The notes under the pieces: generated by a model
The model's input: the letters and a program-made list of their open reading frames with translations, nothing else
The model's database searches: none
What the model was told of the DNA's origin: nothing
Origin: Burkholderia sp.
Lineage (GTDB): Bacteria; Pseudomonadota; Gammaproteobacteria; Burkholderiales; Burkholderiaceae
NCBI GenBank assembly: GCA_028292565.1
Contig: JAQGMD010000134.1
Location: forward strand, 1-8,392
DNA: 8,392 nucleotides
Direction of reading: 5' to 3'
Position numbers and translations under genes: made by a program
Shown here: positions 1,388 through 8,392 of the stretch, piece by piece
How positions within the stretch are numbered: position 1 is the stretch's first letter
Layout: each line of letters begins with the position of its first letter

Positions 1388-2731
1388 TTATCTACGTGCC
1401 GCCGCTATAGCTGAGACCATAGCGTGCGCTACTTCGGGATGAACAATGTCTCCATGATCTGCAATGACTTTGTCAGCCTGCAGGTTATAGATCTTTCCTC
1501 CCTCAAAGTCATAGCTGGCCTCAACGGCCAGGAGCGACCGTGGAGCCGCCTCGGGAGTATGCTGCGCGCCGTTGCGGCCCAGACCCCCAAAACGGGAATG
1601 CTCATCGCCGAGGTCAGCAGCGTCATCTCCGGCGATGCTAGACGCGATGGGATATGCCAGACCCACGGCTTTATCATTGACGGTGTGGGTAATGAGTGCC
1701 GGACCGCGTACGAGCTTTTCCGCAACTACTCGGCGAAAGGCTCCCGTCCGTCCTTCCTCTTCTTCATCGAAGTTTACGGCGAACGCGTTATGTGAAAAGG
1801 CGGCCTGTAACAGCACTACGGAATGCACCGTCAACCCCGTGCCGACGTCAGAGCCCCTAGCTGCGGTTGTCACGAGCCGGGCTCCAAACGAGTGGCCGAC
1901 GAGGTGGATTTTCAAGTCGGCGCGGACGTCGCGGATTTGACGGAGTAGGGCGTTCACGCCGTCGCCTACGGTCCCGGCCCGTTCCTTCATAAGGTAGTAC
2001 GTGGAGTAGTTGAGCAGGTTTCTTGCGGCTGACTTGATTCCGGTAAAGAAATCTCCGAGTCCGGTCGCCCGGCCCTGCTCATCCAGTCCCTCCGTATGCG
2101 CCTCAGGTTCTGACCCCTCACGTGGGGCACCGTCCACAGGGATTGGTTTTGCAAGCCGGTCCATCAGGTCACGTCCATCAAGAGCGAAAAATGCTGGGGA
2201 GGTATCTTCCTCTGTGACTTCGTTCTGGGGTGTCGGTAGAACAGATCGGATGATGTCAGCAAAACTGGTCTGAGCTTTAGGGCTGTCTTCAAGGTCGGTA
2301 ACTAGCGCTCTGGCCATGTCGAGTTTCACCTCGGCGTCCGGGCTCGCAGTAGCTTCCTGCAAATTTTTGATCTGTTCAATGAGCCCAGCATCCGAGATGG
2401 CGCCGGCCAGTCCCGCGCTGGGGCCGGAGACGATTTCCGGGTCAGCAAATTTTTTGGACGGCCACAGAACGGCAAGGACGCCAAAATCGGCCGGAGTTCC
2501 TGCTATGCGGGCAGCTGTTAGTTCCGCTCTTACCAGGCTCAGCAGTCCACGGTACAGTCGGCGGGCCTCTTCCATGTTGTTGTTCCATCCATGGGCCAGA
2601 ACGATGAGTTCGGTAGCCGGTTTCGCTTGGCGGATATGGTTCTTCAGTGCATCTACCTGAGCGGGAATTTCGATGTCACCGCGCTCATTGAATTGCACTT
2701 CAAAGTATGAAAAGCCGGACACTTCCGTCAT
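1388..2731 (-). CDS. Alpha/beta hydrolase (serine hydrolase), last gene of the operon
   Basis: This 447-residue protein has the features of a serine alpha/beta hydrolase. LIVLAHGW at residues 43-49 fits the first core strand and oxyanion turn. IHLVGHSFGARL at 275-286 is the nucleophile elbow with Ser281. Asp353 (HTVNDKAVG) and His426 (ADHGDI) are the likely remaining triad members. Between about residues 95 and 250 lies a long, acidic, low-complexity-looking insertion in the position of a lid or cap domain, and an EEEE run lies at 323-326. There is no signal peptide or membrane helix, so it should be cytosolic. The ATG at 2731 has a strong AAGGAG eight bases upstream, and that site overlaps the stop codon of the peptidase gene before it. 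The substrate cannot be read from the sequence; lipase, esterase and peptidase are all possible. In this context it may be an effector enzyme, which is inference. Confidence 0.8.
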   Translation of the reverse strand: MTEVSGFSYFEVQFNERGDIEIPAQVDALKNHIRQAKPATELIVLAHGWNNNMEEARRLYRGLLSLVRAELTAARIAGTPADFGVLAVLWPSKKFADPEIVSGPSAGLAGAISDAGLIEQIKNLQEATASPDAEVKLDMARALVTDLEDSPKAQTSFADIIRSVLPTPQNEVTEEDTSPAFFALDGRDLMDRLAKPIPVDGAPREGSEPEAHTEGLDEQGRATGLGDFFTGIKSAARNLLNYSTYYLMKERAGTVGDGVNALLRQIRDVRADLKIHLVGHSFGARLVTTAARGSDVGTGLTVHSVVLLQAAFSHNAFAVNFDEEEEGRTGAFRRVVAEKLVRGPALITHTVNDKAVGLAYPIASSIAGDDAADLGDEHSRFGGLGRNGAQHTPEAAPRSLLAVEASYDFEGGKIYNLQADKVIADHGDIVHPEVAHAMVSAIAAARR

Positions 2732-2739
2732 TTCTGTTT

Positions 2740-2746
2740 CTCCTTA
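2740..2746 (-). promoter_or_regulatory. Ribosome binding site overlapping the upstream stop (TAAGGAG)
   Basis: On the minus strand the stop codon TAA of the subtilisin gene (2746-2744) runs into AAGGAG (2745-2740), eight bases before the hydrolase ATG. The two genes are therefore probably translationally coupled and made in a fixed ratio. Confidence 0.75.
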
Positions 2747-4441
2747 TACGGATTGGATGGCACGCATCAAATCGACAATTCCGTGTCCTTGGAAGTTCCG
2801 GTCACGCTTCAGGTCCGTTGCGGAGGAGAGAAAGATGTCTTTGATTTCCTCTGATTTTCCTTTGAACTCGTTGCGTACTGACAGGAAGGCGGCTATGACG
2901 CCGGAGACGTGCGGGGCAGCCATACTGGTGCCGCTGTCCTCGACGTAGTCACACGTTTGTTTGAACTTCCGCTCGGCTTTTCTTCTGGCATCACCGGCAG
3001 CACAGGACACGATTTTTTCGCCAGGTGCGACAACATCCGGTTTCAGCCGACCGTCCCCTGTCGGGCCCTTGGACGAAAAATACGAAACGCCGTACATATG
3101 GGGGCTTTCCCGATGCGTGGACCCGACAGTAATGGCCCGCTCGGAGTTCCCAGGATCGTTGATAGTGAGGTCCAGGCCTGCAGACACCATTCCCTTGAAT
3201 TTGTCGTTGTTGAAGCCGTACCCTGTATTGCCGGCAGCGACGACAACGACCACACCGGAGCGGGCAAGAAGGTCGACCTCAACACATAACGGGCTTTGGC
3301 CGCAGGCGAACCACTCGGGTTCGAATTCATACCCCACGCTTAGGTTGACACCGTGAATTTGGATATTGCGGCCGTATGCGTTGACTCGCTGTACCGCTTC
3401 AAGCGCGGCAATTATTTGGCTCACCTTGCCCTGGCCGTTCGCATCAAGTACTTTGAAGCTGACGAGCTTGCACTTGGGTGCCATGCCGGTGATCGAGGAA
3501 AGCGATAATTTGTCGTAGGTGACCTCACCGTCTTGGTCACGTCGTTTTGCTGCGGCACGTATTTGTGCGCGCACAGGTTTGCTTGCACCAGGGACTGCAT
3601 CAGCATCCGCTACTGAGGCAGCTAATTCATGGACTGCGGCAGCTTCTTCTACTGTGGCTGATTCAATGCCTGCTGCGGCTTTCTCTTTGACATGTTCCCC
3701 TTTGAACAAGGCTCCGGCGATGATACCGGCGACATGGGTCCCGTGCCCGAACTCGTCTGTAAGCGCCGTGCCTGAGTTTGTGAAATTTCTGTGATCCAGA
3801 GGCTTTTGGAGCTTCAGATTCTGGTACTTGGTGAAGTGTGGGTGGTCTCCGTCAATCCCTGAATCGATGACAGCCCAGACGACGTTCTCGCCGAATGCAG
3901 AAAATGAGACGCGAGCGGCATCAGCCTTCACGGTACTGACGGACTTATAGGTCAGCTTGCTGACCGCGAAGTCAGGCCAAATCTTAAAGATCAACTGCTC
4001 ACTCGGTGAGTTCTTGGCTCGCTGTTGGTCCAGCTCAACGAGTTTGCTAATGACACGGGGTTCCAGTTGGGCAACCACATACTGACTATTCATTGGACTG
4101 ATGGGATCAACTCGCTGCCTGGCTTTGTTGACCCCTATTTGTATTGCAAGTTCAATCAGTTGGCTGAGGTCCTCCGCTGCCCCGTCACGGCCTCTCTCGT
4201 ATGCAAGATTGACGTCGATCATGACATCCAGGATAGGAGGGTTATAGTCTCGCACATCCTCGGGCTTCGGCCCCTCAATTTTCCACTTATCCAGCCATGG
4301 TTTAATCGCCCTGAGTAGTGGAACAGCGATCACCGTTTTGTCGAGTACTTCGGGGGTGAACCCGCTGGTGTCCCTAGGATTAGAATCCGGTAATTCGTCT
4401 GCGCTGGTGCCTTCACTGGCTGGCTCTGCCATATTTTCCAT
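2744..4441 (-). CDS. Cytosolic S8 subtilisin-like serine peptidase with I9-like propeptide
   Basis: This is a 565-residue peptidase when started at the ATG at 4441. The catalytic Asp193 is in VWAVIDSGID, His233 in FGHGTHVAG, the oxyanion Asn405 in VVAAGNTGYG, and Ser506 in DSGTSMAAPHVSG, so the triad is complete. Residues about 65-160 alternate strands and helices (DVMIDVNL, QLIELAIQ, YVVAQLEP, IFKIWPDF) in a way that fits an I9-type inhibitory propeptide, ending at IWPDF before the mature domain. An Ala/Glu-rich insertion of roughly 60 residues (about 245-310) separates the His motif from GMAPKCKLVSFKVL. There is no signal peptide, unusual for secreted subtilisins, so it probably acts inside the cell. 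The frame stays open to a GTG at 4570, but the decayed paralogue at 7045 starts at the position equivalent to 4441 and there is no good ribosome site before the GTG. ATG 4432 is another possible start. Confidence 0.88.
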   Translation of the reverse strand: MENMAEPASEGTSADELPDSNPRDTSGFTPEVLDKTVIAVPLLRAIKPWLDKWKIEGPKPEDVRDYNPPILDVMIDVNLAYERGRDGAAEDLSQLIELAIQIGVNKARQRVDPISPMNSQYVVAQLEPRVISKLVELDQQRAKNSPSEQLIFKIWPDFAVSKLTYKSVSTVKADAARVSFSAFGENVVWAVIDSGIDGDHPHFTKYQNLKLQKPLDHRNFTNSGTALTDEFGHGTHVAGIIAGALFKGEHVKEKAAAGIESATVEEAAAVHELAASVADADAVPGASKPVRAQIRAAAKRRDQDGEVTYDKLSLSSITGMAPKCKLVSFKVLDANGQGKVSQIIAALEAVQRVNAYGRNIQIHGVNLSVGYEFEPEWFACGQSPLCVEVDLLARSGVVVVVAAGNTGYGFNNDKFKGMVSAGLDLTINDPGNSERAITVGSTHRESPHMYGVSYFSSKGPTGDGRLKPDVVAPGEKIVSCAAGDARRKAERKFKQTCDYVEDSGTSMAAPHVSGVIAAFLSVRNEFKGKSEEIKDIFLSSATDLKRDRNFQGHGIVDLMRAIQSV

Positions 4442-4625
4442 CGTTTCACTATCAATCCTGCCGGTACTTCCGTATGCCTGTTGTTGGTCTTGCTGGCAAG
4501 TCCGCTTGCATTTTTTCAGTGGACCATGACGGACGAAAGGCCAGCAAGTGAAAAAAGGGCAGCGGTCCACCCCGTCGGCAAGTATCCCGCAAGTTAAATT
4601 TCAAGCTAAGTAAACGGCATTTGGG
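4442..4625. other. 184-bp gap inside the operon
   Basis: This is the longest gap in the operon. Part of it (up to 4570) is in frame with the peptidase and would add a Cys-containing extension if a GTG at 4570 were used, but no ribosome binding site supports that. It contains a T6 tract on the minus strand (4551-4556) without a convincing stem before it. I see no other gene; the only mini-ORFs are 17 codons or fewer. Confidence 0.4.
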
Positions 4626-4967
4626 CTAATCTTCAAAAAACTGGACCGGAGGATTGAACGGCCCCATGACAACTAGTTGCTCCGATTCTGTGGCTTTTAG
4701 TCGGAAGTATGCGGCCGCGGGACTCTTGATCAAAGTGGGGAACGATTGTGGTTCAATCTGCTCGAGGCTGGTCTTGGCTCCGCTGAGCGAGCTGATGCGA
4801 TCCTGTAGCCACTTTATCCATGCAGGGTCAGGCCCTGTGAAGGGAAACACCTTGAGAAAGGCTCGTTCGACGCTCTCGGGGTCCATGTCATGGAAATCTG
4901 GCTCAATCAGGGCGGCCAGGGCGGCGGCGGTTCGCTCGAAAACCAGGTTAGCGTCATCTGCCATCAT
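4626..4967 (-). CDS. Small acidic protein of unknown function (114 aa)
   Basis: I do not recognise this protein. It begins MMADDANLVFERTAAAL and ends NPPVQFFED. The first two thirds look helical, with an acidic stretch (EPDFHDMDPESVERAF) followed by a Trp-containing helix (PAWIKWLQDRISSL); the last third (YFRLKATESEQLVVMGPF) looks like beta strands. No signal peptide, membrane segment or enzyme motif is visible. The frame is open upstream to 5117, but that would run through the preceding gene's end and the hairpin. The ATG pair at 4967/4964 with GGAA six bases upstream of the first is the better start. It lies between a repeat protein and a subtilisin zymogen, so an adaptor, inhibitor or peptidase-substrate role is conceivable, but nothing in the sequence shows this. 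Confidence 0.6.
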   Translation of the reverse strand: MMADDANLVFERTAAALAALIEPDFHDMDPESVERAFLKVFPFTGPDPAWIKWLQDRISSLSGAKTSLEQIEPQSFPTLIKSPAAAYFRLKATESEQLVVMGPFNPPVQFFED

Positions 4968-4996
4968 GTTCCATTCCAGGGAGAAACGATAAGTTT

Positions 4997-5040
4997 CGCT
5001 GGTGGACGCAGGCGACCGAAGCCGAATGCGTCCACCAGCG
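4997..5040. terminator. Perfect 14-bp stem hairpin between two operon genes
   Basis: CGCTGGTGGACGCA (4997-5010) is exactly complementary to TGCGTCCACCAGCG (5027-5040) across a 16-nt loop. It starts 10 bp after the stop of the repeat-protein gene (5051) and ends about 30 bp before the next start (4967). On the transcribed strand it is followed by AAACTTATCGTTT, not a run of U, so it is not a classical intrinsic terminator. Such U-less hairpins in high-GC Gram-positives can act as partial terminators, attenuators or mRNA-stabilising ends. The likely effect is different expression of the first two and last three genes; that effect is inference. Confidence 0.65.
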
Positions 5041-5050
5041 GCGCTGAAAT

Positions 5051-5605
5051 TCAGAGAACTGCCGCGATGACTAGAGGGGCCACCTTGGCGACTACGCTCA
5101 TGACGTCGTCGAACCAACCCTTCTCTTTGCCTTCGGGGACAGCCGGAAGCGTGTCGACTTGAAAGTCCTTTCCGTTGATGGCGTCCACGACTGCTGGCAC
5201 AACGGTGTTGAGTGCGGAGCTCAGGAAGTCCCAGAAGTCCTTGTCATTGGTGAGGCTTGAAGGAGCCGCTGCGAATATGTCTTCGGCCGTTGGCTGCTTG
5301 AAATCCTTGCCGAGGACACTCGTGATGATCGGAACTCCGAACCTCACTACGCTGGAGGCAAATGACCAGAAATCCTTATTGGCAAGATCGGATGGTGTTA
5401 TGTCTGGTGCTTCAACCACGCCTTTGGGCAGCGCCAACGTAGGTTTGATGACATATGCCTGTTGAACTCCGGCGAGGAGCATTGAGCCGAAGGCAGCAGC
5501 GGCCATGGTTGAGTCCTGGGTGAATCCCTTCTGGTCTTTGTGCGTGGCGATGAGGTCGGAGACTGCTTTGGTGATTTTGTCTTGGTCTAGCGTTGCGGTT
5601 GTCAT
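5051..5605 (-). CDS. Small hydrophobic repeat protein of unknown function (184 aa)
   Basis: I do not recognise a family. The protein contains an internal repeat: residues 77-102 begin KDFWSFASSV and end SVLGKDF, residues 122-148 begin KDFWDFLSSA and end AINGKDF, and residues 162-184 (KGWFDDVMSVVAKVAPLVI then AAVL) form a third, truncated copy that ends the protein. Each copy carries a hydrophobic helix after an aromatic-acidic start. Another non-polar segment lies at 34-53 (MAAAAFGSMLLAGVQQAYVI). The ATG at 5605 has AAAGGAA nine bases upstream, a good ribosome site, and the gene starts 24 bp after the caspase stop, so the two are surely co-transcribed. The hydrophobic repeats and the free hydrophobic C-terminus would suit membrane association or oligomerisation, and being next to a caspase makes it a candidate substrate or effector. 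Both ideas are inference. It is not gasdermin-like in length or motif. Confidence 0.75.
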   Translation of the reverse strand: MTTATLDQDKITKAVSDLIATHKDQKGFTQDSTMAAAAFGSMLLAGVQQAYVIKPTLALPKGVVEAPDITPSDLANKDFWSFASSVVRFGVPIITSVLGKDFKQPTAEDIFAAAPSSLTNDKDFWDFLSSALNTVVPAVVDAINGKDFQVDTLPAVPEGKEKGWFDDVMSVVAKVAPLVIAAVL

Positions 5606-5629
5606 TTTGCCGTTCCTTTCGTTTGGTCT

Positions 5630-6622
5630 TTATGAGGGGATGTATTGCTTGCGGTGGGAGCCGACGATCGATGCGATCGCTGCGGCAACATTGGCCGCCG
5701 GTTCGCCGGCACCTGGAGGGCTAGGCGAAGGCGGAGGTGCGGCAGGAGATGTGGGTTCCATCAGGATGAAGGTTTCGTCGGCGAGAAGCTGGTTTGCCGG
5801 TGGAACCCAATACACCGGGGTTTGGTGCAAATTGAGCGATTTCACCTTCGCAATAACTCTGTCGCAAAGAGAGCGGAGCGGCAGGCTTGGGTCCAAAGTC
5901 TGAGTCAGTCCAAAGGTAAAGGCTGATAATGAACTTGTGGCGGGGCTGCCGGCCGCGGCTGTTTCGTCTGCCATGCAGGCGGCGAGGAGTGCGGCATTGA
6001 GGACCGGTTCTGCCAGCTCCTTCGCAGCTGGGATGTCCAAGGTGGGGGGTGTCGCGAATTGCTTCACCACAGTGCCGATATCCGAGGTCGGCTTTTGGCC
6101 GAAAAACCGAATTTTTGTGACCTGCTGCAGCACGCCGATGCGGGTTACCGCATCCTCGTGGGGGGGCTGGAAGACTTTATTTCGGACAAATGAGGCTTCG
6201 CCGCCGGGGAAGAAGACCTTGTCCATTCCACCTGCATGGCATGCGTCCAACACCACCGTCAGGACGGACGAGGGGATGTTTTTCGTGCGGTCTACCAGTT
6301 CCTTGTCCTCAAAGAACTTGTCATAGAGGCAGAGCACTTCCACCATAGTGTCGCCCTCAAGCATTCTGTAGCCATGGGAGGACTCGTAGAAGACGAGTTT
6401 GTCCCCTGCACTGGCCCCAACGAAAAGGGCGTCCAACGCACGACGAACGTTGTCCAACGTGGCGTTCTGGTTATGCAGGAGGGTGATATCGGACGGAGAG
6501 AATGCGTAGATGTCCGTCAGGATTTTTCGGAATGCAAGAGTGTCGTTGATACACGAGTTGAGCCGGTTCCGTGGGTCAGGGTAGTCGTCGATGCCGACGA
6601 GGACGGCCTTTTTGTTTGCCAT
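5630..6622 (-). CDS. Caspase-like cysteine peptidase (C14 family), first gene of the operon
   Basis: This 330-residue protein has a caspase-fold catalytic domain. It opens with KKAVLVGIDDYPDPRNRLNS, the first strand and loop typical of prokaryotic caspases. The catalytic His83 is in LVFYESSHGY, where the usual SGHG is SSHG, and Cys128 is in TVVLDACHAGG. The domain continues through a short p10-like part (LNAALLAACMADETA, VYWVPP). The tail (about 289-330) is a Pro/Ala-rich linker followed by an amphipathic stretch (ANVAAAIASIVGSHRKQYI). No signal peptide is seen, so it is cytosolic. The ATG at 6622 is chosen because GGAG lies six bases upstream; an in-frame GTG at 6634 overlaps that site. As first gene of an operon with a second peptidase, it is the likely trigger or activator. 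Cleavage specificity cannot be judged from sequence alone. Confidence 0.88.
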   Translation of the reverse strand: MANKKAVLVGIDDYPDPRNRLNSCINDTLAFRKILTDIYAFSPSDITLLHNQNATLDNVRRALDALFVGASAGDKLVFYESSHGYRMLEGDTMVEVLCLYDKFFEDKELVDRTKNIPSSVLTVVLDACHAGGMDKVFFPGGEASFVRNKVFQPPHEDAVTRIGVLQQVTKIRFFGQKPTSDIGTVVKQFATPPTLDIPAAKELAEPVLNAALLAACMADETAAAGSPATSSLSAFTFGLTQTLDPSLPLRSLCDRVIAKVKSLNLHQTPVYWVPPANQLLADETFILMEPTSPAAPPPSPSPPGAGEPAANVAAAIASIVGSHRKQYIPS

Positions 6623-6976: not shown

Positions 6977-6992
6977 GGGGGGGGGGGGGGGG
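6977..6992 (+). repeat. 16-G homopolymer upstream of the peptidase pseudogene
   Basis: There are sixteen G residues in a row, followed by CGGGCAGGGCGGG, so the whole stretch is a potential G-quadruplex on the plus strand. It lies about 50 bp before the ATG at 7045, between promoter and start of the decayed gene. Long G runs slip during replication and are also a common place for sequencing error, so the exact length is uncertain. A reading frame from the ATG at 6849 through the run cannot be joined to the peptidase frame because of a TAA at 7006-7008. Confidence 0.7.
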
Positions 6993-7044: not shown

Positions 7045-8190
7045 ATGACAGGAGACATGACCAACGCGAATGAACTGCCGGAGAGCGAGTCCGCGGCACA
7101 AAACAGTGTTTCGTTTACTCCCGAGGTGCTCGACAAGAGCGTCATTGCCGTATCTCATCTGCGGATCCTGGAGGAGAAAAGTGAAGCGGAGAACCGGGCG
7201 CGGAACGGAATAGAATACGTGCCGGACCTGATCGGTGTCATCGTGGATCTCGACCTCGAGTAAAAGGGCGGCGGGGAGAAAGCCAGGCAACGGTTTCGTG
7301 AAACTGGTGGATGAGGCAAAGGCCCGTGCAGCCGGCAGCCCGGACAAACAGGGCATCGTCACCGGAAAAACACACAGGCAGTACGACTTTGCGCGGCTTG
7401 AACCGGACGTTATCCGCGAGCTGGTACGGCTTGACCAGGCGGGAACCACGCAAGGCGGGGAGGAAACGCACACAGGAAACGATCTACCGTATCTGGCCGG
7501 ACTTTCCGATCGGCAAGTTACTATTAAGTCCGTCAGCACCGTCAAGGCTGATGCCGCCCGCGTGTCGTTCTCGGCATATGGTGAAGGCATCGTTTGGGCG
7601 GTCATCGATTCGGGCATTGAGGGTTCGCATCCGCATTTCGCCGCGCGCGGCAACCTCGATGTCACCAGTCCGCTCAGGCACCGCGACTTCACCGGAAGCG
7701 GCAGTGGGCTCAGGGACGCGTTCGGCCACGGCACCCACATGGCGGGCATCATCGCCGACACCCTGTCAGCGGACTCCGCTACAGGCAAGAAAGTCGTCGT
7801 CGTGGCCCGTCACCGCGACGAAAACGGCGAAATAGAACCCAGAAGGCTGGAGCTGGGCGCGATCTCGGGGATGGCTCCGAAGTGTAAACTGGTCACTTTT
7901 GACGAAAACGGCCAGGGTGAGGCCAGCAACCTTCTGGCGGCCATTGACGAAATTCAGCAGATCAATGGATGCGGCCGCATATTCGGATGCACGGGGTGAA
8001 CCTGAGCGTGGGATACGGCTTCGAGCCCGAATGGTTCGCCTGCGGGCAAAGCGGCTTGTATCTCTTAAGTACCCCTGTTGAGGTGGGTGGTCGTCGTTTA
8101 CGGTGGCCTTGGGAGGGGCCGGGGTGGTTCCGGTTTTCGGCCGGGCGTCATGGCCCGTGAAAGAGATCGTCGCCCCCGGCCTGTCTTCCA
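7045..8190 (+). pseudogene. Decayed paralogue of the S8 subtilisin-like peptidase
   Basis: This is a broken second copy of the peptidase encoded at 2744-4441. It starts at ATG 7045 (AAGGTG five bases upstream) with SFTPEVLDKSVIAV, matching GFTPEVLDKTVIAV. A frameshift at about 7261, in TAAAA, ends the first frame; a second frame carries the propeptide helix (FVKLVDEAKARA, LEPDVIRELVRLDQ). The IWPDF motif lies in a third frame (about 7450-7520), and the second frame then resumes with KSVSTVKADAARVSFSA, the Asp motif VIDSGIEG and the His motif FGHGTHMAG. Another shift near 7975 moves MHGVNLSVGYGFEPEWFACG to a further frame. After about 8060 only traces remain. The Asn and Ser motifs are missing, so it cannot be active. 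The Ala-rich insertion is shorter than in the intact copy. It is richer in GC than the intact gene, so it is an old or separately acquired relative, not a fresh duplicate. Confidence 0.85.
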
Positions 8191-8198
8191 AGCAGACC

Positions 8199-8392
8199 GG
8201 GACTATCCCATAAACGGTGTATCCGACGGTTTGTTTTAGTAGTTTTCAGCGGCTGGGAATCGGTTGCTGAAGGTGATGGCGAAGGCGTTCAAAGCGGGCT
8301 TCCAGCGCATTGTCCATCGGGTCCTGCCGGCACCGGTCGGATCGAGGGATCGGGTGACCAGATACAGGCACTTTAGCGCGGCCTGCTCGGTC
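8199..8392 (-). mobile_element. IS256-family insertion sequence, transposase 3' end (partial, runs off the right edge)
   Basis: The element appears to begin near 8199 with a terminal-repeat-like sequence (GGGACTATCCCATAAACGGT), 37 bp beyond the transposase stop codon. It cuts off the peptidase pseudogene. The other end and most of the transposase lie right of the window, so the inverted repeat and target duplication cannot be checked, and the boundary is approximate. Confidence 0.65.
8236..8392 (-). CDS. IS256-family (mutator) transposase, C-terminal 51 residues
   Basis: The minus strand encodes the C-terminus of a DDE transposase of the IS256/mutator family, ending in a TAA at 8236-8238. 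The visible part reads ALKCLYLVTRSLDPTG, then RWKPALNAFAITFSNRF and PAAENY, the typical tail in which a conserved W-K-P-ALN-F-I-F pattern closes the protein. The catalytic Asp/Asp/Glu residues would be outside the window. The tail shows no frameshift. The family call rests on recognition of this tail. Confidence 0.8.
   Translation of the reverse strand, partial: TEQAALKCLYLVTRSLDPTGAGRTRWTMRWKPALNAFAITFSNRFPAAENY

Follow-up and report, generated by a model that had tools for sequence, protein, structure and literature searches.

The stretch of DNA studied here, hereafter the window, comprises 8,392 nucleotides of contig JAQGMD010000134.1 from Burkholderia sp. (assembly GCA_028292565.1). On its minus strand there are five intact open reading frames, all co-directional within 5.2 kb, which encode a caspase (P0001), two small proteins (P0002 and P0003), a subtilase of the S8 family (P0004) and an alpha/beta hydrolase (P0005). 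The locus is likely composed of two separate modules placed side by side, each one formed by a protease and its partner: the caspase with P0002, and the S8 subtilase with the hydrolase. The features of the region, in the order of the genes along the minus strand and with window coordinates, are the following:

5630..6622, minus strand: caspase P0001 (peptidase C14), 330 amino acids, recognized by Pfam (E 3.3e-19) and by conservation over 120 rows
5051..5605, minus strand: P0002 ('KDFW' protein), 184 amino acids, with predicted Lys-bounded hydrophobic helices, characterized from its relatives, caspase fusions and low-confidence helices in AlphaFold2 (AF2) models
4996..5040, minus strand: hairpin in the P0002-P0003 gap with a 13-bp outer stem, found by folding; a possible terminator or mRNA boundary
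4626..4967, minus strand: P0003, 113 amino acids, no family match above cut-off
4442..4625, minus strand: 184-bp gap between P0003 and the S8 gene, with a terminator-like pattern at 4573-4556 (pattern match only)
2744..4441, minus strand: S8 subtilase P0004, 565 amino acids, recognized by Pfam (7e-42), PADLOC and alignment A2
1388..2731, minus strand: alpha/beta hydrolase P0005, 447 amino acids, recognized by weak Pfam matches and an alignment of 8 rows

The intergenic distances are 24 bp between the caspase gene and P0002, 83 bp between P0002 and P0003, 184 bp between P0003 and the S8 gene, and 12 bp between the latter and the hydrolase gene. In the second of these gaps, a 76-nt stretch with the hairpin folds with -38.2 kcal/mol (z -6.62), and none of 200 shuffled sequences was as stable. 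The terminator-like site of the following gap is weak when taken alone, because 13 such sites occur in the window and 8.8 +/- 2.6 are expected from shuffles. Altogether, the spacing suggests three predicted blocks: caspase plus P0002, P0003, and S8 plus hydrolase. A previous interpretation made from the letters alone (the sequence-only reading) had described here an intact co-directional operon of two peptidases, a serine hydrolase and two unassigned small proteins. The five intact minus-strand open reading frames are certainly there, but one intact operon is not confirmed, given the gap with the hairpin and the gap with the terminator-like pattern. As that reading also stated, the two small proteins are unassigned: neither P0002 nor P0003 had a confident family match in the library scans, where PHROGs gave only E 0.02-0.08, and P0003 had no relative in plasmids or viral contigs. 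The Rfam scan gave nothing at the gathering cut-offs, and no signal peptide was recognized in the peptidases, a judgement made by eye only.

P0001 matches the Pfam family Peptidase_C14 with 69.9 bits (cut-off 21.4). The counts that follow rest on the best 120 of the 157 rows over the threshold (7997 were scored), P0001 included. The His-Cys dyad H83/C128 is present in 120/120 of these rows, and Ser81 and Asp126 are equally invariant (120/120); Asp27 is kept in all 119 rows that have a letter there, and Lys201, a residue of the linker (the variable stretch that precedes the p10 part), in 117/120. Positions 149, 187 and 172 (an Arg in P0001 at the last one) are also conserved as Lys. Its sequence relatives in the PDB are chains named Metacaspase-4, -9 and -1. 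Of these structures, we take PDB 6w8s to be AtMC4, with a numbering that agrees with PMC7206013. In AtMC4, the linker residue Lys225 is held in a pocket formed by Asp137, Ser84, Asp352 and Ser350, and is cleaved upon calcium treatment (PMC7206013). According to a review, every C14 member other than the caspases that has been characterized to date shows a strict preference for Arg and/or Lys at P1 (PMC5756287). In the alignment with the PDB sequence, Asp126 of P0001 corresponds to Asp137 of AtMC4 and Ser81 to Ser84; together with the linker Lys201, these residues appear to match features of the Lys/Arg-cutting metacaspases. Relatives of P0001 were absent from the viral contigs, and the phages gave one 25% match only. 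When 395 genomes of the phylum of Pedobacter genome G001 were searched, 77 of them matched, the best one with 57 bits and most of them in the p20 part only. A separate aspect to mention is that many unfused caspase relatives end in FDPxxWLRxQLG- or FDSFLQxLGIG-like sequences, which could be a docking motif.

The association of the caspase with P0002 was observed both as neighboring genes and as fusions. The search with P0002 returned two relatives besides itself, P0006 (56% identity) and P0007 (29%). For P0006 and a 78% caspase relative the longest contig measures 24242 bp in both cases, and for P0007 and a 55% caspase relative it measures 16877 bp in both. Since these sizes coincide, each P0002 relative very probably shares a contig with a caspase, as judged from the sizes and not from the contigs themselves. 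Furthermore, 17/120 listed caspases have at least 410 amino acids, and 16 of the 119 listed relatives carry a P0002-type extension at the C-terminus (the fused domain was taken to start where the local alignment with P0001 stops). Eleven of these 16 extensions were placed by alignment A4 (14 rows), in which they are 24-34% identical to P0002, and the other five (P0094, P0097, P0101, P0106 and P0116) were assigned from the segment pattern only; the 17th long caspase, P0086, has just the beginning of a P0002-like domain. Several fusions, e.g. P0073, P0088, P0102, P0115 and P0122, present an internal Met-Thr-Thr near the point where stand-alone P0002 starts, which fits a fusion of neighboring genes. 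P0002 had no match in plasmids or viral contigs, and the fused caspase P0073 retrieved five plasmid records, all of them found with P0001 too.

P0002 contains a series of hydrophobic segments, predicted to be helical and each one preceded by a lysine:

5306..5374, minus strand: residues 78-100, DFWSFASSVVRFGVPIITSVLGK, after K77 (invariant in A4); net charge +1; contains Arg88
5168..5239, minus strand: residues 123-146, DFWDFLSSALNTVVPAVVDAINGK, after K122; net charge -2; hydrophobic moment 0.41
5054..5119, minus strand: residues 163-184, GWFDDVMSVVAKVAPLVIAAVL, after K162 (invariant in A4, as is P177); net charge -1; has a Lys within the segment

To count such segments we defined them as stretches 18-30 residues long that end either at K/R or at the C-terminus, with thresholds of our own choice for mean hydrophobicity (0.2) and hydrophobic moment (0.35) on the Eisenberg scale. 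The set consisted of 19 domains (P0002, P0006, P0007 and the 16 fused ones), and the caspase parts of the same set served as control. The 19 domains contain 31 hydrophobic amphipathic segments against 1.3 +/- 1.1 in shuffles, none of 300 shuffles reaching 31, and at least one qualifying segment is present in 18 of them; the control contains 4 segments against 1.9 in shuffles, with 32/300 shuffles reaching 4. The pattern of a segment start was found at 54 places, 40 of which have K just before. The bias towards lysine is general in these domains, with a K:R ratio of 238:69 versus 190:281 in the caspase parts, and K exceeds R in 19/19 domains versus 3/19 caspase parts (Fisher p 3e-25, uncorrected for relatedness). 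The only invariant columns among the 14 rows of A4 are K77, K162 and P177, and both AF2 models of P0002, made with 3 and 14 rows, place helices at residues 77-98, 122-143 and 162-183, although with low confidence.

More distant caspases with a possibly similar neighbor were found in four loci of Paraburkholderia, Sinorhizobium and two Bradyrhizobium plasmids (L006, L007, L008 and L017), fetched from five close records of which H30 is the fifth. In all of them there is a caspase with 33-35% identity, and the gene after it encodes a protein whose hydrophobic stretches lie close to basic residues; an 18-residue stretch with a moment of 0.18 is repeated 16 times in L008 and 11 times in L017, and the protein of L007 has no basic-free stretch of at least 16 residues. 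Downstream in 2/4 of these loci there is a gene for a muramidase (L006, with an IS3 gene in between) or for a GH108 protein (L007). In a further locus, from Rhizobium (L015), the caspase lies within a longer annotated gene, and the annotation includes no helix-protein neighbor.

With regard to the second block, P0004 matches Peptidase_S8 of Pfam and the subtilase model of PADLOC (175 bits), and its catalytic residues D193/H233/S506, as well as N405, are present in 6/6 rows of alignment A2. The sequence-only reading had attributed complete catalytic residues to both peptidases, and the conservation found here and in the caspase agrees with it. The catalytic domain begins at about residue 184 and is preceded by a long N-terminal region. 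Such a region is known in S8 proteases as an inhibitory propeptide, and that of P0004 is presumably propeptide-like. P0005 could be recognized as an alpha/beta hydrolase by weak matches under the Pfam cut-offs, and S281 (in GHSFG), D353 and H426 are conserved in 8/8 rows of alignment A1, in line with its previous description as a serine hydrolase. The 40 invariant columns of these 8 rows are distributed unevenly: residues 1-91 contain 10 of them and residues 248-447 the other 30, while the stretch 92-247 has none; since the central stretch lacks invariant columns, it may offer room for a removable lid. The closest named relatives of the hydrolase are from Pseudarthrobacter (80%) and Paenarthrobacter (52%), which makes it probable that the host belongs there. 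No relative was found with A1 in viral contigs, and the PDB search with A1 gave one match (E 0.045), which we took as chance.

The S8-hydrolase pair recurs in the same order in Actinobacteria, in Rhizobiales and in the samples of Bacteroidota. Plasmid counts refer to the 20 listed of 27 records matching the hydrolase: the S8 gene is directly upstream of the hydrolase gene, on the same strand, in 14/20 (one S8 being a fragment). Partners could be assigned in four of the six remaining records; L014 (Embleya, unannotated) received none and H25 was left out. Other proteases take the part of S8 in these four: a C25 peptidase adjoins the hydrolase in Nostoc (L010) and Sinorhizobium terangae (L011), a CHAT-nSTAND1 protein is encoded beside it in Planktothrix (L012), and a CHAT protein is the second gene downstream in Gemmobacter (L013). 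Around the Pedobacter genome G001 we drew one sample of 296 genomes from the phylum and another of 251 from the family, in which 3 and 6 genomes matched the hydrolase, respectively. The matches of G001 (the seed itself), G232 and G531 were strong, and S8 adjoins the hydrolase in 3/3 of them; those of G275, G448, G467, G497 and G521 were weak, and G275, the one looked at, has no S8 alongside.

Some of these neighborhoods, together with those of other S8 relatives, contain genes of known defense types. In a Sinorhizobium meliloti plasmid (L016, 3279-7546), an S8 relative with 37% identity lies between a patatin and a metallo-beta-lactamase (MBL) protein that matches the LmuA model with 178 bits and the Avs1a model with 109 bits. 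Locus L024, from the Bacteroidota sample, carries on one strand (3387-15280) a haem peroxidase, S8, the hydrolase, a pair of TIR genes of the ThsB type (184 and 312 bits) and genes similar to AbiEi/AbiEii, and in L031 the S8-hydrolase pair is near a weakly TIR-like gene (below the cut-off) and an ATPase-GH25 protein. The immunity or cell-death setting that the sequence-only reading had supposed is thus sustained by relatives of both proteases found in such neighborhoods (L024, L031 and L016). Other observations on these loci can be added. L024 may be a variant akin to Thoeris in which S8-hydrolase serves as the effector. An animal-type haem peroxidase gene is upstream of the hydrolase in this locus (3387-5372) and in Nostoc L010 (4279-6054). 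Genes of cell-wall hydrolase types (M15, M23/GH25, DUF2272, amidase/glucosaminidase and ATPase-GH25) are near S8-hydrolase pairs in L001, L002, L005, L019 and L031, an observation that carries no background count. Downstream of the pair in L003, at 8907-12547, there are a possible lanthipeptide precursor and a LanC-family gene.

The pairing of the genes, the fusions, the pattern of lysines and helices, the exchange of partners and the conserved residues described above can be accommodated in a model of two independent modules, to which we give a little less than an even chance and in which every cleavage and activity, the membrane target and the trigger are predicted. In the first module, the metacaspase-like caspase would be activated, probably by cleaving itself at the conserved linker lysine, and would then cut P0002 after the lysines at the borders of its helices. 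The freed helices, of about 22 residues and kinked by proline, would enter the inner membrane, and the cell would be killed or arrested. That P0002 is such a precursor, from which the caspase releases membrane-active helices, is the explanation we favor, although it is unproven. In the second module, the hydrolase would be kept inactive by its variable insert until the S8 protease, itself made as a zymogen, cleaves this insert, and the freed hydrolase would attack a component of the cell, probably a lipid. Adjacency, the exchange of partners and the variable stretch make it plausible that the hydrolase is a protease-activated effector, and in this sense the coupling of a protease to an effector, already proposed in the sequence-only reading, remains a plausible idea. 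A more ambitious proposal, which we consider rather doubtful, is that P0002 is a dedicated polyprotein substrate of a bacterial caspase, a string of lysine-bounded membrane-lytic helices released as a pore-forming burst, with a gasdermin-like outcome reached by another effector; the principle would be common to actinobacterial caspases and perhaps, although the repeats are unlike, to those of rhizobia and Paraburkholderia, and the muramidases encoded in some of the loci could finish the lysis.

The five genes could instead constitute one system, with the subtilisin zymogen activated by the caspase and acting in turn through the hydrolase or P0002. The co-directionality of all five genes and the long N-terminal region that precedes the S8 catalytic domain are in favor of this cascade, which was the proposal of the sequence-only reading; however, the blocks are parted by the hairpin and the gap, S8-hydrolase pairs occur with no caspase nearby, and the relatives show a caspase with a P0002-like protein and S8 with a hydrolase instead. 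When the 119 listed caspase relatives were compared with the 119 listed hydrolase relatives (window rows excluded), no longest contig of the same size was found; this comparison is partial, as contigs of at least 8 kb are available for only 34/119 caspases and 52/119 hydrolases and both lists contain the best rows only, and the same kind of test had tied P0002 to the caspase in 2/2 cases. In addition, 0/39 fetched loci, a search outside of which the actinobacterial genomes lay, contain a caspase matched by P0001 together with S8 or the hydrolase. In plasmid NZ_CP021816, a caspase and an S8-MBL pair are about 33 kb apart. Within this coverage, one conserved five-gene system was rejected as a recurring set, and we regard the cascade as improbable. 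It seems equally improbable that the locus is unrelated to defense, with S8 and the hydrolase serving a lanthipeptide or secondary-metabolite cluster as its maturation protease and esterase, and the caspase module acting as a developmental or stress protease. The LanC-family gene downstream of the pair in L003 would fit this idea, but such an annotation appears in L003 alone among the fetched loci, and other loci carry ThsB-type TIR, AbiE-like, CHAT-STAND or LmuA-type genes.

A closer competitor, which we rate as unlikely though deserving attention, concerns P0002 itself: it could fold into a helical sensor or scaffold, bind membranes or a trigger and regulate the caspase, which would then have other substrates. 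The 14-row AF2 model reaches a predicted template modeling score of 0.51, with block means of 63-79 in the predicted local distance difference test (pLDDT) over residues 111-170, and the fusion of P0002-like domains to caspases also suits a regulatory domain. In canu, moreover, CanB is soluble together with the caspase CanA and has a potential modulating role (PMC12799240). Yet the AF2 model is of low confidence and has no fold match (the search against the PDB gave nothing at E<=0.001), and a scaffold has no need of a Lys-over-Arg bias or of invariant lysines. It should be noted that the precursor explanation, and the two-module model that includes it, have several points against them. The overall pLDDT of the P0002 models is 45 and 57, and given this low confidence P0002 may instead form a folded bundle. 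The domain of P0050 has no qualifying segment, and under K/R cutting just one segment of P0002 itself (123-146) is within the thresholds, since the first and third fail because of their internal Arg or Lys. The net charge of the domains is acidic, from -2 to -10, and that of the P0002 segments is +1, -2 and -1, unlike in most antimicrobial peptides. As for the pocket of AtMC4, Asp352 and Ser350 correspond in P0001 to Ala224 and Ala222, in a stretch that aligns weakly (1.4 bits), so the two pockets may not be the same. With the same thresholds, the proteins beside the rhizobial and Paraburkholderia caspases have 2 qualifying segments in L006 and 0 in L007, L008 and L017, and tblastn of P0002 gave no match in these loci; their likeness to P0002 is at most suggestive. 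Finally, the two modules could still cooperate in this strain, and P0003 is left unexplained by the two-module account.

As far as we are aware, a substrate has been identified for few of the prokaryotic caspases. In this locus, a candidate is encoded beside the enzyme or fused to it, and its possible cut sites are visible as conserved lysines, so the question of the caspase substrate becomes directly testable. The second module, in turn, suggests that bacterial protease-activated effectors may reach beyond nucleases to alpha/beta hydrolases working with several protease types. Both modules resemble self-destruction or anti-phage devices and are candidates for such a role.

The region is flanked by insertion sequences (IS), as previously proposed. 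An IS21-type istA is located at 1-750, with 157.5 bits, just under the model cut-off of 160, and 8199-8391 shares 90.7% identity with an annotated IS256-type element of an Arthrobacter FB24 plasmid. Between the caspase gene and this second flank, at 7045-8160 on the plus strand, there is a decayed second S8 gene, with 44% identity to P0004 (107/242 alignment columns) and spread over several frames. This copy stops near 8049, where the DNA shared with Arthrobacter plasmids starts. Upstream of it, a run of about 16 G at approximately 6977-6992 could be a slippage site or an assembly artefact.

Several known systems can be compared with this locus. In bacterial gasdermin systems, a small membrane-active protein is released by a caspase-like or subtilisin-like protease. 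The precursor explanation shares with them the freeing of such a protein by such a protease, and differs in the repeated helices, which take the place of the gasdermin pore former; no gasdermin model matched the five proteins of the window. IetAS was also discarded: the best IetS model gave 73 bits on part of P0004 compared with 175 for the subtilase model, NF042956 gave 48.5 against a cut-off of 900, and none of the five proteins had an ATPase match. The two-gene EACC1-caspase system likewise has caspases with varied C-terminal domains (PMC7159879), but P0001 reached only 42 bits with the model of EACC1-associated caspases (NF047832, cut-off 140), and in the position 5' of the caspase, within the window, only the decayed S8 copy was recognized and no EACC1 gene. 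The literature search, outside of which most subscription papers lay, yielded no paper on a caspase with a lysine-bounded helix precursor and none on an S8-alpha/beta-hydrolase immune pair.

The S8-hydrolase module has its closest parallels in two groups of systems. Kaur et al. 2020 report that VMAP caspases always have an adjoining alpha/beta hydrolase gene (PMC7159879), and in these ternary systems the protease and the neighboring hydrolase are predicted to act jointly, as we propose here; the hydrolase near CHAT or C25 proteins in L010-L013 is a further likeness. The main partner in our case is S8, the resemblance of the hydrolases is one of gene neighborhood and not of family comparison, and none of the eight window proteins scanned matched MoxR, vWA or VMAP. 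Protease-activated pro-nucleases and caspase-nuclease loci were reported by Tuck et al. 2025 (PMC12799240). Hachiman, AVAST and canu have in common with the present module a protease gene that adjoins the gene of a putative proenzyme, and the S8 relative of L016 is even placed beside an LmuA/Avs1a-type MBL protein. The differences are an alpha/beta hydrolase as effector, S8 rather than trypsin or a caspase as protease, and a window in which no sensor gene was recognized; canu as such was rejected for the window, since none of its eight scanned proteins matched an MBL model. For the caspase module, the nearest comparison is AtMC4, which processes the peptide precursor Propep1 (PMC7206013). Both share the caspase fold, Asp at Cys-2, Ser at His-2 and the linker Lys that in AtMC4 is the self-cleavage site, and, as a prediction for this locus, a peptide precursor that is cut after basic residues. 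The Asp352 of AtMC4, for which no Asp was seen here, sets them apart, and so do the bacterial origin of the present system, the several helices carried by each precursor, and a precursor gene that adjoins that of its protease or is fused to it.

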